Origin: a virus
IMG/VR virus record: IMGVR_UViG_3300034407_001303
Location: 1-22,890 of that record
Length of the DNA stretch: 22,890 nucleotides
Reading direction: 5' to 3' (one strand)
Part shown: in pieces, positions 4,232-11,780 of the stretch
Layout of the letters: each line of letters begins with the position of its first letter
Numbering within the stretch: the stretch's first letter is position 1
Position numbers and translations under genes: made by a program
The notes under the pieces: model-generated
What the model was told of the DNA's origin: nothing
What the model saw: only the letters and a program-made list of their open reading frames with translations
The model's database searches: none

Positions 4232-7200
4232 CTACCTCATTATATTATTTATTTTTTCGAACTTCTTTTTTTTGATAGCATTTGATCTTTCTATTCTATC
4301 TCTGATAGCGCTACCAAACTTGTCATCATTAAGAAGATCGTTTTTTGCTTCTGCCCTAGCGGATACAACAGCTCCATTTAACATGGTTTCTGCTGTCTCT
4401 CTAGCAGACACATCTCCTGCAACTAACCAGGCTTTTTTTAGATTTTGATATTCACTTGTTGCAATTATCTTTTCAGCTGCATCAAGTGTTCTGATACCAG
4501 AGTATTGATGTAACTTATCAATTTCTTCTCCTGTAAGACCTACGTCAGCATCCCAGGTTTCATGATGTTTAGATGGTCCAAATCTTAAAGCAATAAACTC
4601 CTGGTCAATTTTATAAGTTCTTTTAGCATAAGCTTCTTGAGCTTTCCCACTACCAGCTAACTCATTACTTTCTGTAACTGCGTTATTAGGTCCTATAGTT
4701 GAGCTGTAAATAGGACTGATTATGTCTGGTCCATAAGCTCCAGATAACATTATTTTTTGACCCCACAAGTTTCGTCTTGGAAAAAGATCATTACTTAAAA
4801 ATGGGATCTGTGATTTTAATTGATCTATTAATCCATAAGTTGCCCTTACTAAAGGATCAACAGTTTTTTCTCCCTGGGCCGCTATTCTTGGTACAATAGA
4901 TTTCCAAAAGTTTTCAGCTGTTGAGCCAGCATATCTGTCTGGATCTTGCAAAGCTTTCATCAATGAGCTGAAACCTTGCATAAAGGTTTTATTTGTCATT
5001 TGATTACCAAGAGCTGCTGCTAAAGCTGCCATGACAGCTTTACCTTTTTCGTCATCTCCATCACCACTTTGCATGGCTTCTGCTGCATCTGCCGCCAATC
5101 CTAAAATTGATGAGAATGGCTCAGCTGCCTGGTATGAATAGTATGTATTACCAATCTTAATTGAGTAAGGCTGCCATCCGGTTCGTCTTAAAGCACTTCT
5201 TAAATCTGGATCAGTTGGGCCACCACCTGTAACCTCACCATTTTTTGCCATCATAAATACAGCAGCTCCTGTAGCGTTACCCACAAATAGCTTTGCCTGG
5301 GCCATTTGACCAGCGGCTTTATCTGCTGCTGAAGCACCAGGAGCTTTAGCCGCTTTCATAGCTGCCGCAGTTTCACCATAGAAGAATCCAATAGGTCCTC
5401 TATCAATAGCAGCATATTTAAATGCGTTATATGGTGTTTTGAAAAATGGCAGAAAATATCTCATTCCTGGTATTTTTCTTATTGCGTTAATTCCCTTACC
5501 AACATTATCTAAATCAGTTTGTAATGTTATATATTTAGCGTGTGAGTCTGTTTGTTTTACAGCTGCATCTGGTGGATTAAATACATAATCTCCAATATGG
5601 TTTGATAACTCATCACCAGATAAACCTTTTGTTTTACCAGATCTATAGGCTTGCTGATAAATGCTCATACGTTTTGCCATCACCTTGAAAAACGTATCTT
5701 CAAATTCTAGCAGCCTTGTTGGTATTCTGCCTAAAGTTGCAAAGTTACCAGCAATATCAATAAAGTTACCTATCATTCCATTAGCTTCAAAAGCTTCAGC
5801 TGTAAAATCATTACCAAATCTTTTTGTGCCAGAACCTTGTAGCTTTGATCCCTCAATAGGAGATTGACCATATTTAAAAGATGAACCAGCTGCGCTAAAT
5901 GCTTCTCGTAAAACCATTAAGCCAGCAAATAACTGTGCGTTTCCTTCTCCTATGTAAGCTCCACCTTCACCGCCCATAGCTCTTTTAACTGTGCCTATGC
6001 CACCAGCAACATAAGATTCACCAACATGAGCCAAGGTTGTAAGAATGTTTCCTGTAATATTTTTGACATGAGTAATACCAGAAGATAATAAAATGTTTAT
6101 CCAGGCTTCGTATAAAGCATCACCCATCTTTTTAAGCTTAGAGCCTTTATTAGCAAAAGCTAATTTAGCTGCGTTGCTTTCACCAGAGGTAAGATACATT
6201 CTGGCCATATCTTTTATATCATCTACACCGCCAAAGCTTTCTAATAGAGTATTTACATTAGCTGTTCTGGTTTGGTCAAAATCGCCACCCCTTACAGGAA
6301 TCTTAAATTGCCCTAACGCTCTAGCTATTTCTGTCTGCGCTCCTTTAATTTGAGCTTGTAAATTACCGACTAATTCTAATTGAGTCCTAAAATCTAATAC
6401 AGCCTGGTTATCTCCGCCATCTGCTTTCAATGCAAGCTCATCTAATTTCTTAACTTCTGCAACTAAAAGTTCTCTGGAAGCCAGCATTGTTTCTGCCAGG
6501 CCAGCATCTGAAGTTATTACGCCACCTTTTTTTCTTTCTAATATACTTTTAGTTAATGTTTTAGCATCAACACCTAAATCATCAGCAAGAGATTGTGTTG
6601 CTTTTTGTGTTATTTCACCTCTATTGGCATCTGTTATCTTGTCTTTAAAAGTAAGACTAACGCTATCTATTGTTGAATAAATATTTCCTTCATTTGGAAT
6701 TTTAGCATCACCACCAGCGCCAACAGCTCTAAAGTCTGACAACATACCATCATTTAGATTGACCGGTTTTAAATTAGATTTAAAATTTTCTGCGTTTTTA
6801 GCTTCTTCAGCTTTTCTTATCTTTAATGCAGCAGCTTCTTTTGTATATTGTTCCTCTGTTACTATTCTTACAGGTAATGTTTCAAGCTCCATATCCTTAG
6901 AAGCAAACCAGGTAGCATTACCATCCATCAATCTGTAAGTACCATCTCCATTATCTATAACACTTAATGGACCTCGTTTACCTCTTTGGCCACCAGCTGC
7001 TTCAGACATAAGTCTTTTAGCAACAGGTATTCCTTTATTATCAGCACTCTTAGTAGGAATAATCTTATCTATAGCTATATCAACAGTATCATTTGTCCTG
7101 GTAAAATATGATGAGCTATCTTTAAGATTAAATGCAGGAACTTTAACATCTGTTCCTGGTGGTTTTGGCCCTATAAAATTTTTATTATCTATTAATTCCT

Positions 7201-7510
7201 GTTCTCTTTGAATTGCTTTCCCAAAAGTATTATTAGAATTTTTAAGTAAATCCTCAAGTTTTCTTAATGGATAAGAAACAACAGGAGCTACATAATCAGA
7301 CACAACACTTGATATACCAGAGTATTTTGCTAACTGAATAAACTGTTCATCCTGGTTAACAGGCAAAGTATAACTGTTATTAGGCGCAATATTTTGATTG
7401 TCAAAACTAATACTAGGCTGAAGTAACTCAGACCCATCAAGCGGTTTAACTACGTCACCAGCAACAGATTTTTCAATATCAAGATTTTCTATGGAGTTTG
7501 GTATAGACAA
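4232..7510 (-). CDS. Large internal virion / ejection-type protein with N-terminal ParB-like domain
   Basis: This 1092-aa protein is the largest in the window. Residues about 145-222 look like a ParB/sulfiredoxin-fold domain: IDKIIPTKS, GPLSVIDNGDGTYRLMDGNATW, then LPVRIVT, where DGNATW sits at the usual DGxRR box. Residues 345-405 are helical. From about 465 to 930 there is a long module with WINILLSSGITHVKNITGN, IPGMRYFLPFFKTPYNAFKY and GWQPYSIKIGNTYYSYQAAEPFSSI, a layout I associate with large phage polyvalent or ejection proteins. It sits where T7 has gp16, but no transglycosylase motif is visible. The start is a TTG: an in-frame TAA lies immediately upstream and the first internal ATG is near residue 168. 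It is probably packaged and ejected with DNA. Confidence 0.82.
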   Translation of the reverse strand: MSIPNSIENLDIEKSVAGDVVKPLDGSELLQPSISFDNQNIAPNNSYTLPVNQDEQFIQLAKYSGISSVVSDYVAPVVSYPLRKLEDLLKNSNNTFGKAIQREQELIDNKNFIGPKPPGTDVKVPAFNLKDSSSYFTRTNDTVDIAIDKIIPTKSADNKGIPVAKRLMSEAAGGQRGKRGPLSVIDNGDGTYRLMDGNATWFASKDMELETLPVRIVTEEQYTKEAAALKIRKAEEAKNAENFKSNLKPVNLNDGMLSDFRAVGAGGDAKIPNEGNIYSTIDSVSLTFKDKITDANRGEITQKATQSLADDLGVDAKTLTKSILERKKGGVITSDAGLAETMLASRELLVAEVKKLDELALKADGGDNQAVLDFRTQLELVGNLQAQIKGAQTEIARALGQFKIPVRGGDFDQTRTANVNTLLESFGGVDDIKDMARMYLTSGESNAAKLAFANKGSKLKKMGDALYEAWINILLSSGITHVKNITGNILTTLAHVGESYVAGGIGTVKRAMGGEGGAYIGEGNAQLFAGLMVLREAFSAAGSSFKYGQSPIEGSKLQGSGTKRFGNDFTAEAFEANGMIGNFIDIAGNFATLGRIPTRLLEFEDTFFKVMAKRMSIYQQAYRSGKTKGLSGDELSNHIGDYVFNPPDAAVKQTDSHAKYITLQTDLDNVGKGINAIRKIPGMRYFLPFFKTPYNAFKYAAIDRGPIGFFYGETAAAMKAAKAPGASAADKAAGQMAQAKLFVGNATGAAVFMMAKNGEVTGGGPTDPDLRSALRRTGWQPYSIKIGNTYYSYQAAEPFSSILGLAADAAEAMQSGDGDDEKGKAVMAALAAALGNQMTNKTFMQGFSSLMKALQDPDRYAGSTAENFWKSIVPRIAAQGEKTVDPLVRATYGLIDQLKSQIPFLSNDLFPRRNLWGQKIMLSGAYGPDIISPIYSSTIGPNNAVTESNELAGSGKAQEAYAKRTYKIDQEFIALRFGPSKHHETWDADVGLTGEEIDKLHQYSGIRTLDAAEKIIATSEYQNLKKAWLVAGDVSARETAETMLNGAVVSARAEAKNDLLNDDKFGSAIRDRIERSNAIKKKKFEKINNIMR

Positions 7511-7550: not shown

Positions 7551-9020
7551 CTATATTCCAGGAACACTTAAATTAATTTGATCGTAAATTGGTTTCCATA
7601 TATCAGCACCAGCTACTAAAGCAGCTGTTGCTATGCTCTCACTTTCTTTAAGCATATTTTGATAGTCACCTTTTTTAGCATCATCTTTTTCTATAACTCT
7701 GGCTTTATCGTAGATACTCCAGAGCTGTTCTTTAACAGCGCCCATTTCCTGTGACCAAATCTGAACTTCTGCTTTCTTGCCTTCCGGTGTTGTAACAATT
7801 ACTTTTCTGTCAAAGTACCCACCAGGGTAAGCTCTCCAGCCTTCATCAACTATCTCATAGTTTTCACTTAACATTTTTACGATTGCTTCTGCATCTTCTG
7901 GTCTATCAGTATTAACACCTGTTCTGACAATATCAGTTACCTGGTCTGGATCTGTGTAACCTTTAGCACCTACTTTTCTTCTTAGGCTGTCTTTTGTTTT
8001 TATCCCTGGGTCTACTGTCGTTGCACCTGTAACAACAGATTTGTCATTAACATTTAATGGATTTTCAGTAGCTTCTTTTAAAAAACCAACTAAACCAGCT
8101 TGAGCTTCTTCTGCGTTATTATAAACTTTCTTTAAAAATCTTTCAGTAGGACTAGCCATATCAGCAAGGAAGTTTGCACCTTTAGCTAAAGCACCACCGA
8201 AAAGCGCACCCATTCCAAAAGATTGAGCTGACTGACCAAAATCAAACCCTGCCTGTTCTCCGCCCTGGATCTTTACAGACTGTCTAAGACCATCATCAGC
8301 AGCAAAATATGTACCGCCTTCAAATGCAGCCAGAGCTGTTGTGCTTTTAATTGATCCTTTTAAAGCTTCTACAATCCCTTTTTTAGTTGTTTGAGCTACA
8401 CCATGTCTACCAACAACACCTATGCCAAGCGTTCCCAGGCCCACATAAGTAGTAGGATCTGTCAGCATATTCTTAAAAAATCTTCCTGTTCCTGCCCAGG
8501 TTATTTCTTTATCGTCATAAGTTTTCATCATTTGCAGAAAACGAAACTTAGTATCATCTTCCATGCCAGATAGCTGACCAGTTCTTATTCCCATCATTGG
8601 TAAGTTATAATTAAAAGTTCCCATGAACTCTAAGCCAAAATCTGCATATTCCCTTTTCTGCTCATCTGACATTTGCTCAAATGGTATGTCAGCTAAAAGC
8701 TTTGGGCCTTCAGCATTATTACTATTCATTATTTTTTGGGCAGCAGATCTGTAACTTGCAGGACCTACTGTACCTACATTCTTTTCTCCAGCCTGGGCAA
8801 AAGCTACATTTGGTCTGTAAAACTTATCATAGATAAGCTTGCTGCTTACAATCCAATTAGTATCTGAAAAAAGATCTTCTTCTTTTATATCTCTTTTTAT
8901 ATCAGTTTGATCTTTGTCAAATAAATAATCTGAATTAGATTCTGGCGGCGCATCTTCTGCCCACGATTTCTTATGAAGTATATCTTGCCTTCTGTTAATA
9001 TATTCTTCTAGGTATCCCAT
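7551..9020 (-). CDS. Internal virion / ejection-type protein with C-terminal RelA/SpoT-like domain
   Basis: This is a 489-aa protein. The N-terminal part has EEYINRRQDILHKK, ADFGLEFMGTFNYNLPMMG and FFKNMLTDPTTYVGLG, and is rich in small residues with weakly hydrophobic stretches near 190-205 and 265-285, typical of internal or polyvalent phage proteins. Residues about 341-440 resemble a RelA/SpoT nucleotidyltransferase: VTDIVRTGV (D363), GYFDRK (G401-Y402) and AEVQIWSQEM (E418, Q420). The D-to-E spacing of 55 and Y-to-E spacing of 16 fit the alarmone synthetase fold, but the usual QIRT is QIWS and GYRSLH is GYFDRK. Activity is uncertain. The next gene, 40 nt away, carries a ParB-like domain. 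The ATG has AGGAT upstream. Confidence 0.8.
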   Translation of the reverse strand: MGYLEEYINRRQDILHKKSWAEDAPPESNSDYLFDKDQTDIKRDIKEEDLFSDTNWIVSSKLIYDKFYRPNVAFAQAGEKNVGTVGPASYRSAAQKIMNSNNAEGPKLLADIPFEQMSDEQKREYADFGLEFMGTFNYNLPMMGIRTGQLSGMEDDTKFRFLQMMKTYDDKEITWAGTGRFFKNMLTDPTTYVGLGTLGIGVVGRHGVAQTTKKGIVEALKGSIKSTTALAAFEGGTYFAADDGLRQSVKIQGGEQAGFDFGQSAQSFGMGALFGGALAKGANFLADMASPTERFLKKVYNNAEEAQAGLVGFLKEATENPLNVNDKSVVTGATTVDPGIKTKDSLRRKVGAKGYTDPDQVTDIVRTGVNTDRPEDAEAIVKMLSENYEIVDEGWRAYPGGYFDRKVIVTTPEGKKAEVQIWSQEMGAVKEQLWSIYDKARVIEKDDAKKGDYQNMLKESESIATAALVAGADIWKPIYDQINLSVPGI

Positions 9021-9028
9021 GCCATATC

Positions 9029-10837
9029 CTATTTAGGGTTTTTGATGTCATCTTCTTCTGAAGAACTAAATATACTCAGTATGGAATCCCAGGTACTTAC
9101 ACCACCGGATTTTGCATCAGTATCATTTTGACCTTTTTGCGCTTTTAATTGTTTAATAAAATTACCTTTGTCGATTTGATAGGTTTCTATTTCATTTATT
9201 GTTTCTTTTTCTAAAACAACTTCTATAGGTGAATAGATGCGTTTATTCGTTGTAGGGTTTATAGGATTACTTTTTACAAATTCTCTAGCTTTGATAATAT
9301 CGTCTTTAGTCCAGTTTTTAATTTCCTTTTTGCCAATCGCTTTTGACAATGCAGAAGTCGGAGCTATGAAACCTATATCTTGCTCCAGGTTTCTTGCATA
9401 CATACCAGCAACCTCTTTATAGGCTTCTAGTGGGGATTTTTTCCCATCAGTAACAAGAGTGTAATAAGTAGACATAGCATCAGCTCTTAATAAACCTGTG
9501 CTAGTTTTTTGTTTGTAACCACCCATTGAAATGCCACCAGCTGAATCACCAATAGCTGTTTTTAATATGCCAGCATAACGCTTGATCTGGTTTGATTCAC
9601 TTGAGCTGTTTAAATATCCTTTTGCAGTTTTAATAATATTAACAGCATCACCAACAACTAAGCTCCCATTTAAACCAATATTACTTTTAACTTCTTCAAT
9701 AACTTCCATAATCTCATCATTGTTTTTTGCTTCAGCTAATCTTTCATGAAAGCCAACAACTACAGAAGCATCAGACACAGGCGCATCTTTTCCTAAAATA
9801 AGATCATTTAAAATTTTAAATTGTTTGTCATCAATGTCTGCATTTTTATAAGATTGTAAAATTTGATTTGTTGTCGGTAGCTGAACTGTAGATCCATCTC
9901 TTGAAGCTTCAATTAAATTAGTTATGAAATTATCAAAATTACCCTGTTGTTTAATTTTAAGATCTTTTGTATTTTTTTTAGCAGTTCTATTATCTTCAGC
10001 AATCCTTCTTCTTTCTAAAGTTCCAACTAAGTTATTCGCTTCTCTAAGTAAATTATCTCTGTCTGCTGGTTTTAAAAAAGGAAAGTTTTTAGGATCACTT
10101 AAATTTTGTAGCACTACTAAAGCATCACCTGGCTTACCAGAAATAGCAGCGTTACTTATTTGCTGTCTTACACCAATTCTTGCGACATTACCTCTTGCTG
10201 ATAAATTTTTATTAGTTGCTTCAACATTTGTGAAATACCCTGTTCTCGCTGCGTTTTGATACAAACCGCCTACAAACTTACCAGGTGATATTTCAACACC
10301 AAACAATTCTATCTGAGCTTTAGACTTTTCAGCAGGATTTCCTGTTGCAATAATATTTTCTAATTGGGTTGCTCTTGTAATGATTTGAGCTTTACCAATA
10401 TCAATCGCTGAGTTTCTGACAGTCTGCATAACTGACAGACGTTTGTTTGAGACATTACTTGCAGCACTTGCTAAAAACCTTTTTTTAACAATACCATCAT
10501 CAATCTTACCAGCTATTCTTTTACTTGAATTAGACACAACTTTATTATAATTTTTTAAAGCTTTGCTTGGGTTTTGTTGGGCATTTGTCTTTGCTAGTAT
10601 TTGTTCATTGTCTAATATAATTTTAAATTCATTTTCAGCAGCTGCTAGTTTAGAAGCTCTTTCTGCTTTTAACTCTTGTTCATACCAGGCAAGACTTTCT
10701 TTTTGTGCGCCAGCTGCAACTTGTGTAAAGGCAGCCGCTCCAGCTGTAAGAGCAGAAGGGTTTGCCTGGACACTAAATTGAGTAGCTCCAACCTTAGATG
10801 TTACAACACCTTGGCTTTGATAAGTAGGAACTTTCAT
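9029..10837 (-). CDS. Internal virion protein (T7 gp15-position)
   Basis: This 602-aa protein is Lys/Asn/Ala-rich and largely alpha-helical, with long charged helices (for example LAWYEQELKAERASKLAAAE near 50-70) and no signal peptide or enzyme motif that I recognise. It starts MKVPTYQSQGVVTSK and ends with an acidic SSSEEDDIKNPK tail. It lies directly after the gp14-like gene and before the other large internal proteins, which is the place of gp15 in T7-like phages, where such proteins form part of the ejected core channel. Assignment rests on size, composition and order rather than on a motif. The start shares its A with the previous TAA (TAATG). Confidence 0.75.
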   Translation of the reverse strand: MKVPTYQSQGVVTSKVGATQFSVQANPSALTAGAAAFTQVAAGAQKESLAWYEQELKAERASKLAAAENEFKIILDNEQILAKTNAQQNPSKALKNYNKVVSNSSKRIAGKIDDGIVKKRFLASAASNVSNKRLSVMQTVRNSAIDIGKAQIITRATQLENIIATGNPAEKSKAQIELFGVEISPGKFVGGLYQNAARTGYFTNVEATNKNLSARGNVARIGVRQQISNAAISGKPGDALVVLQNLSDPKNFPFLKPADRDNLLREANNLVGTLERRRIAEDNRTAKKNTKDLKIKQQGNFDNFITNLIEASRDGSTVQLPTTNQILQSYKNADIDDKQFKILNDLILGKDAPVSDASVVVGFHERLAEAKNNDEIMEVIEEVKSNIGLNGSLVVGDAVNIIKTAKGYLNSSSESNQIKRYAGILKTAIGDSAGGISMGGYKQKTSTGLLRADAMSTYYTLVTDGKKSPLEAYKEVAGMYARNLEQDIGFIAPTSALSKAIGKKEIKNWTKDDIIKAREFVKSNPINPTTNKRIYSPIEVVLEKETINEIETYQIDKGNFIKQLKAQKGQNDTDAKSGGVSTWDSILSIFSSSEEDDIKNPK

Positions 10838-11340
10838 TAGGCTGTCGCATAAATTCTAGCGCCGGTAGATGCGCCGCTAAGTAATGATCCAAACGCCTTA
10901 ATGTTCCCTGCTCTCCTTGCTTCTCTGCCATATAATCTATTTAAGTTACCTTGCATAGTCTGTTGCAATCCTTGTTCTTCAAGTTGTTGCTTACCAACTT
11001 GGGCATTATATCTTTTAATATTTATTTCATTGTCAGCTTCCTGGGCATTTGCCAGAGCTATTTTAAGTGGAGTGCCACTATCTGCTAACCATCCATTATA
11101 TGAATTAGCCATTTGTGTTTGCTGCGCCAACTCATCATAAGAGTTTTCAAATTGCACAATCTGTAGTTCTTCAGCAAGAATGAGCTGGTCCGCAGCAATC
11201 TGTGAAGCATCAGCATTTCTGTCGTTAATATCAGCATTGTATTTATAAGCTGCTTCTTGGCCTTTGCCCTGGGCCGCATGGCCTGCCGCTGTTGCTACAG
11301 TTGATATGACCGCTGCTGCTATTGCTACTTCTACACCCAT
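10837..11340 (-). CDS. Internal virion protein, T7 gp14-like
   Basis: This 167-aa protein has a hydrophobic Ala-rich N-terminus (VAIAAAVISTVATAAGHAAQG, about 4-24), then a long Gln/Ala/Asn-rich helix with YKYNADINDRNADASQIAAD, and a C-terminal ARRAGNIKAFGSLLSGASTG segment. This is the usual pattern of podovirus gp14-type proteins, which are stored in the head and inserted into the outer membrane at ejection. It is overlapped by a TAATG junction at each end and followed by the gp15-position protein. I am fairly sure of the family by layout, not by a catalytic motif. Confidence 0.8.
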   Translation of the reverse strand: MGVEVAIAAAVISTVATAAGHAAQGKGQEAAYKYNADINDRNADASQIAADQLILAEELQIVQFENSYDELAQQTQMANSYNGWLADSGTPLKIALANAQEADNEINIKRYNAQVGKQQLEEQGLQQTMQGNLNRLYGREARRAGNIKAFGSLLSGASTGARIYATA

Positions 11341-11780
11341 TAAGTTATCCTCGCTACTCTGTAATAATCAGATCCATCTGGACCAAATTTTTCCATTAAA
11401 CCTTCTTGCTTAAAACCTAAGAACCTTGAGAACCTTTGAGCTTCCGGCCAATCTGTTCTGACTGCTGCCTGGACTCTTTTAAATTCATGTTCTTCAATAA
11501 TCTTTTTAAAATCTTTTGTGACTGCTTTTATGATTGGCTTGCTATAATCATGTAGCCTTTCACTAGCCAAAAACCACGCTTCACCGACCCCATTCCATAA
11601 AGGTATAATCCCAGCACACGCTATCAAATACCCATTGTCCAGGGCAGTAAACGCTGTTCCAGGGGTGTTTAGGTTGTCAGCAAAGTTCCTAAACTGTCCA
11701 ATATGTTTTGGTGCGCCTTTATTCATTTCACCAGCCAGAATATCCCTTGCGTGTTCTGGCTTGTAATCAACAATAATCAT
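11340..11780 (-). CDS. GNAT-fold acetyltransferase-like protein (T7 gp13 position)
   Basis: This 146-aa protein has a GNAT-like order of elements: an N-terminal YKPEHARDIL helix, LIACAGIIPLWNGVGEAWFL as the central strands, KPIIKAVTKDFKKIIEE as a helix, and AVRTDWPEAQRFSRFLGFKQEG, which matches the usual N/D-x-x-A-x-x-F-x-x-x-LGF-x-x-EG end of the fold. The standard Q/R-x-x-G-x-G/A acetyl-CoA loop is not obvious, so catalytic activity is doubtful. Proteins of this fold stand at the gp13 position in many podoviruses and help assemble the internal core. The start overlaps the preceding stop (ATGA). Confidence 0.8.
   Translation of the reverse strand: MIIVDYKPEHARDILAGEMNKGAPKHIGQFRNFADNLNTPGTAFTALDNGYLIACAGIIPLWNGVGEAWFLASERLHDYSKPIIKAVTKDFKKIIEEHEFKRVQAAVRTDWPEAQRFSRFLGFKQEGLMEKFGPDGSDYYRVARIT

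Follow-up and report, generated by a model that had tools for sequence, protein, structure and literature searches.

What an alarmone-synthetase-like domain is doing at the end of a protein that a phage may eject into its host is the question raised by a 489-aa open reading frame (ORF) in the window, by which we mean the whole 22,890-nucleotide stretch analysed here (positions 1 to 22,890 of IMG/VR virus record IMGVR_UViG_3300034407_001303). An earlier note, made from the letters alone, proposed that this minus-strand ORF lies in an ejection-protein gene block, ends in a RelA/SpoT-like nucleotidyltransferase domain and could act in the host at the moment of infection. Its reading of the letters is accurate: the ORF is where it was placed, positions 7701-8000 encode residues 341-440, the strings VTDIVRTGV, GYFDRK and AEVQIWS are all present, and D363, Y402 and E418 are correctly numbered, with spacings of 55 (Asp to Glu) and 16 (Tyr to Glu). 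The features on which our argument draws are collected in Table 1.

Table 1. Features of the 489-aa ORF and its neighbourhood, in window coordinates; residue roles are those assigned by alignment.
Feature	Position	Strand	Remarks
489-aa ORF with C-terminal RelA/SpoT-like domain, predicted first part of a T7-gp16-like ejection (internal virion) protein split in two	7551..9020	minus	
Conserved N-terminal module of the ejection protein, residues 119-263	8232..8666	minus	common to 73 viral loci irrespective of payload
Extent of the modelled RelA/SpoT (SYNTH)-like domain, residues 331-471	7608..8030	minus	
Pfam PF04607 RelA_SpoT match, residues 340-431	7728..8003	minus	
K341 ... K349, first-helix lysines aligned with two Apk1 lysines	7974..8000	minus	invariant in 21 sequences
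D363-I-V-R366, catalytic Asp and ATP-binding Arg (DxxR of Apk1 and SaEAS)	7923..7934	minus	
GGYFDRK (residues 400-406), corresponding to the Gly-Tyr motif	7803..7823	minus	
E418-V-Q420, catalytic Glu and ATP-binding Gln	7761..7769	minus	
1092-aa ORF, predicted second part of the split gp16-like protein	4232..7510	minus	phrog_6651 internal virion protein, E 3.9e-38
602-aa ORF occupying the place of gp15 (tunnel protein)	9029..10837	minus	synteny with LUZ100 gp46; position only
167-aa gp14-like internal virion protein	10837..11340	minus	phrog_418, E 1.4e-9; synteny with LUZ100 gp45

The location in an ejection-protein block was confirmed and can be given more sharply: judged by homology and gene order, both of which place it among the T7-gp16-like ejection proteins, the 489-aa chain makes up the N-terminal half of a gp16-like protein that is split in two. 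Residues 113-260 are homologous to LUZ100 gp47, internal virion protein D (46.6% over 148 residues), and the 1092-aa ORF, which opens with a TTG start 40 bases past the stop of the 489-aa ORF, matches an internal virion protein family of its own; it is from these two matches that we take a gp16-like protein to have been split, with the payload ending the first half. The genes follow a T7-like order of portal, tail-tube, a GNAT-like protein at the gp13 place, gp14, the gp15 place, the 489-aa ORF, the 1092-aa ORF and tail fibre, and LUZ100 has the same gp11-12-13-14-15-16-17 order. Pfam and PHROGs profile searches returned no family match for the 602-aa ORF at the gp15 place. LUZ100 gp47 shares the gene position and the N-terminal module of the 489-aa protein, but is a single chain of 1210 aa without a RelA-like domain; T7 gp16 shares the position and bears a lytic transglycosylase at its N-terminus (PMC8954989). 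A frameshift or wrong stop was rejected as the cause of the split, since RelA-bearing relatives keep the same two ORFs where their downstream sequence is at hand.

Three further observations concern the neighbourhood. The GNAT-like protein at the gp13 position (11340-11780, minus strand) matches phrog_4177 (2.3e-30), the internal virion protein family phrog_308 (1.7e-9) and the acyltransferase family phrog_4470 (0.008). Residues ~177-235 of the 1092-aa protein gave weak ParB-like and SbnI matches in two libraries (E 0.05-0.13), so that this part of the split protein may contain a ParB-like domain. Downstream of the tail fibre, three tandem minus-strand ORFs of 135-147 aa (69-476, 473-883 and 883-1326) have similar ends (...GDLA) and look like diverged paralogues.

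The domain itself, which the earlier note had argued from motifs, is upheld by profile searches. RelA_SpoT is the sole Pfam domain in the 489-aa protein; it scores 23.3 bits (E 7.9e-5) against the whole protein, where the cut-off is 27, and a marginal 26.4 bits (E 9.1e-6) against the domain alone, with 26.7 bits in a six-frame search and 27.3 when neighbours are included. Relatives were gathered stepwise from viral contigs to a final alignment of 21 sequences with identity down to ~30%, and a profile of these relatives run against the whole PDB matched Tas1/Apk1 (E 7.5e-8) and SaEAS (1.1e-4), the next row standing at E 0.79. The single sequence gave no match in the PDB or NCBIfam and, in PHROGs, one weak family of unknown function; relatives of the domain in a second subgroup were not called by Pfam. 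With the C-terminal domain alone as query, annotated phages yielded no relative of useful E-value; the whole 489-aa protein had none in plasmids, and a scan of bacterial genomes found none. A chance motif was rejected on the PDB profile matches together with the invariance of the active site in the 21 sequences. Within the domain dN/dS is 0.04-0.23 (six pairs), indicating purifying selection. In our view homology is settled: residues 340-431 form a RelA/SpoT synthetase (SYNTH) domain of divergent sequence, having the profile, the fold and the catalytic Asp and Glu of that superfamily.

The fold was seen in an AlphaFold2 model built from the 21-sequence alignment (pLDDT 82.8, pTM 0.67), which shows a nucleotidyltransferase core of mixed beta-sheet flanked by helices. 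All 50 Foldseek matches listed for this model are alarmone synthetases, Tas1 being top at 5.6e-6. Two of the outcomes that the earlier note had named as refuting its proposal, no significant match to RelA/SpoT profiles and a predicted structure without the mixed-sheet core, thus did not occur. A previous model, from 11 near-identical relatives, had low confidence (pLDDT 63.6, pTM 0.49), and its Foldseek matches already pointed towards synthetases. VIA-align gave Z scores of 10.9 for Tas1 (135 residues, 3.2 A), 9.9 for SAS1, 9.1 for SaEAS, 7.3 for CapRel and 6.5 for FaRel2, with clearly unrelated folds at ~4.7 or less and one at 5.5. The last two of these synthetases share the fold and bring in a different substrate: a tRNA pyrophosphokinase like FaRel2 or CapRel would block host tRNA at its 3' CCA end and bring host translation to a stop. 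Both rank below Tas1, SAS1 and SaEAS, however, and are absent from the profile matches, and a phage that needs translation would gain little unless its own tRNAs escaped; we hold such an activity to be improbable.

Roles were assigned to active-site residues by alignment to Apk1 and from the published residue list for SaEAS (PMC12691689), which was relied on because the HMMER alignment of SaEAS is shifted around its Asp (Ala in the crystal). In that list D121 of SaEAS is catalytic, and the ATP-binding residues of SaEAS and Apk1 are R124/R330, the Glu and Gln of the E-x-Q motif, N169/N370 and K154/K353 (PMC12691689). By alignment D363 and E418 occupy the catalytic positions of the homologous structures, and the phage domain has the DxxR (D363 and R366), the Glu and the Gln (Q420) of an Apk1/EAS-type ATP site. 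K341, K349, D363, R366 and E418 are found in 21 of 21 sequences and Q420 in 20, so that five of the six active-site positions outside the search pattern are invariant (random expectation P ~1.7e-5); the invariance of GGYFDRK is partly ascertained, the same string having served as the search pattern, and L022, a close relative outside the set, has Phe for Y402. At the place of N370 stands K406, and no residue aligns with K353. The absence of these two equivalents is why we do not file the domain in the Apk1/EAS-type subfamily, and with two ATP-site residues of Apk1 and SaEAS replaced or missing its substrate and activity may differ, as the earlier note had cautioned.

These losses bear on a second alternative, in which the ejection machine retains the SYNTH fold for structure or binding and the domain catalyses little or nothing; the Phe of L022 and the lack of an immunity gene in the fragments searched speak for it too. 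A scaffold would not require such conservation of active-site residues, though, and here it is maintained down to ~30% identity and across varied architectures. The other payloads at this place, moreover, are members of enzyme families, and there are related phages that have no domain there at all. We therefore think a purely structural role unlikely.

Those other payloads emerged from a profile of the N-terminal module, which retrieved 73 viral loci whose payload was judged by ORF extent and Pfam. At about 25 of the 73 the module-bearing ORF has no recognised payload, many of these being a single gp16-like chain of ~1200 aa. Elsewhere the module carries a RelA-like domain (three subgroups), a zeta-toxin kinase (L074, L093 and L098; E 6e-12 to 4e-20), an ADP-ribosyltransferase of the ART-PolyVal family (L017/L112, L097 and L108; E 1.6e-4 to 2.7e-6, below the cut-off) or DUF7178 (L019/L099, L020/L104, L082, L101 and, weakly, L072), and locus L105 has a domain of no recognised family in the payload place. 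The position of DUF7178 suggests that it, too, is an effector. At L021 a zeta-toxin kinase lies just upstream of a gp16-like ejection protein, the module itself not being covered. The RelA-like profile found nothing in 26 searched module-bearing records with another payload or none. In a tree of the module the RelA-bearing rows fall in few clusters; exchange shows inside supported groups, where L097 (ART) sits among L099 and L101 (both DUF7178), and L108 (ART) groups with L105, the linker start MELLKMTGFGTAAGVTLG being common to both. Between L105 and L108 the ejection module and linker are near-identical and the C-terminal domains different, a direct payload swap.

The RelA/SpoT-like domain is thus one among several payloads that replace each other at this site, a point that the earlier note missed, and we read the C-terminus as a putative polymorphic payload slot on an ejection protein, after the pattern of polymorphic toxins. 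Such exchange is typical of conflict systems (PMC5512222) and would also suit an enzyme aimed at rivals and not at the host, which on ejection would trigger dormancy or exclude superinfecting phages, or which would act late in the producing cell. No ORF that could be an immunity gene lies in the 40-base gap between the 489-aa and 1092-aa ORFs, and HD_4 hydrolases were absent from the ten records searched, all of them fragments. The lack of an immunity gene in these fragments counts against an anti-rival role, itself a putative one, which we rate as slightly more improbable than the modification of tRNA.

Several known systems approach this arrangement. Apk1/Tas1, the Pseudomonas aeruginosa type VI secretion (T6SS) effector and (p)ppApp synthetase (PDB 6ox6), is both the best profile match and the best structural match, with the same DxxR, Glu and Gln positions and the two helix lysines; it differs in sequence (~21% identity), in having N370 and K353 where the phage domain has K406 and no equivalent, and in its PAAR/T6SS delivery and accompanying immunity protein. 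Apk2, a proven (p)ppApp synthetase, forms the C-terminus of a MuF minor-capsid protein of temperate phages (PMC12226406). It resembles the 489-aa protein in ending with a SYNTH domain and in belonging to the phage particle, where the latter would also reside; its carrier is MuF, whereas ours is gp16-like, and it is found in temperate phages with the adjoining immunity genes iapK and aph1, whereas no immunity gene was seen in the fragments searched here. A MuF toxin was rejected, Pfam having found no MuF domain and the N-terminal homology being to a gp16-like protein. SaEAS (PDB 8vx3), the second profile match, is an exported alarmone synthetase whose SYNTH domain is likewise coupled to a delivery route; the routes given for this group are Sec, T3SS, T6SS, T7SS, eCIS and MuF, and a podoviral ejection protein is not among them (PMC12691689).

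Phage polyvalent proteins, predicted to be injected, carry the same effector repertoire, including RelA/SpoT, ART, zeta and ParB domains, and RelA/SpoT domains were described in phages of spirochaetes and epsilonproteobacteria and on MuF; the words ejection and internal virion do not occur in that account (PMC5512222). Polyvalent proteins hold several effectors per chain; the 489-aa chain has a single recognised one, whose site on the constant gp16-like module is fixed, and the possible ParB-like stretch belongs to the neighbouring chain. Exchange of a peptidoglycan hydrolase domain is already known for ejection proteins (PMC8954989); we found no report, among the open-licence papers searched, of ejection or internal virion proteins with payloads of the present kind, which is weak evidence. 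RelA/SpoT domains on the MuF head protein (Apk2) and on polyvalent proteins are already known; it is the gp16-like vehicle that may be new.

Distant relatives of the domain (L136-L145) were also observed within phage proteins of 1100-1870 aa. One of these has a ddrB-ParB domain, one is fused to the virion structural family phrog_684, and others have stretches that match phrog_10691 and the end of phrog_21; for L140 the match is to pneumococcal-phage minor head (MuF) proteins (E 8e-3), the protein family of Apk2 (PMC12226406). The best viral matches in the fold library are phage proteins ~1000 aa long whose annotations include DdrB-like, ART-PolyVal and RelA/SpoT.

The reading that we favour, with a probability of roughly 0.55, is that an ejection protein has been turned into a payload carrier, and that an ATP-dependent 3'-pyrophosphotransferase is delivered to the host cytoplasm with or before the DNA. 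The constant N-terminal module would be part of the DNA-ejection machine and the C-terminus an exchangeable effector. The 489-aa protein would be packaged in the head with the gp14-, gp15- and gp16-like proteins and, by analogy with T7, would leave the particle with or ahead of the DNA, exposing its C-terminal domain in the host cytoplasm. There the domain would use ATP to place pyrophosphate on the 3'-OH of a nucleotide; going by its nearest relatives, the acceptor would most likely be an adenine nucleotide, giving (p)ppApp as Apk1 and Apk2 do, and possibly a guanine nucleotide. A fall in ATP, or altered control of host growth, as infection begins would then aid the take-over of the cell or hinder rivals.

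The periplasm contains little ATP. It therefore weighs against a cytoplasmic, ATP-using payload that, of the ejected T7 proteins gp14-16, gp16 leaves its N-terminal part in the periplasm while its C-terminal part reaches the cytoplasm (PMC8954989). Given that neither an adjoining immunity gene nor HD_4 was found (ten records), a strongly toxic enzyme would moreover be made unguarded late in infection. We also count against our favoured reading the replacement of N370 by K406, the missing equivalent of K353 and the weakly hydrophobic character of the segments preceding the domain.

Beyond this locus, we propose tentatively, at somewhat short of even odds, that in this podovirus family the gp16-like ejection protein serves as a general injection vehicle for polymorphic payloads that reach the host in the opening moments of infection, the payload here making an alarmone, possibly an unusual one, before phage genes are expressed. 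If this is so, T7-type ejection machines, hitherto viewed as conduits for DNA, would double as secretion devices with exchangeable toxins, and one more delivery route would stand beside those listed for alarmone synthetases. The question of how podoviruses act on their host before the first gene is transcribed would then have a concrete set of payloads to address.
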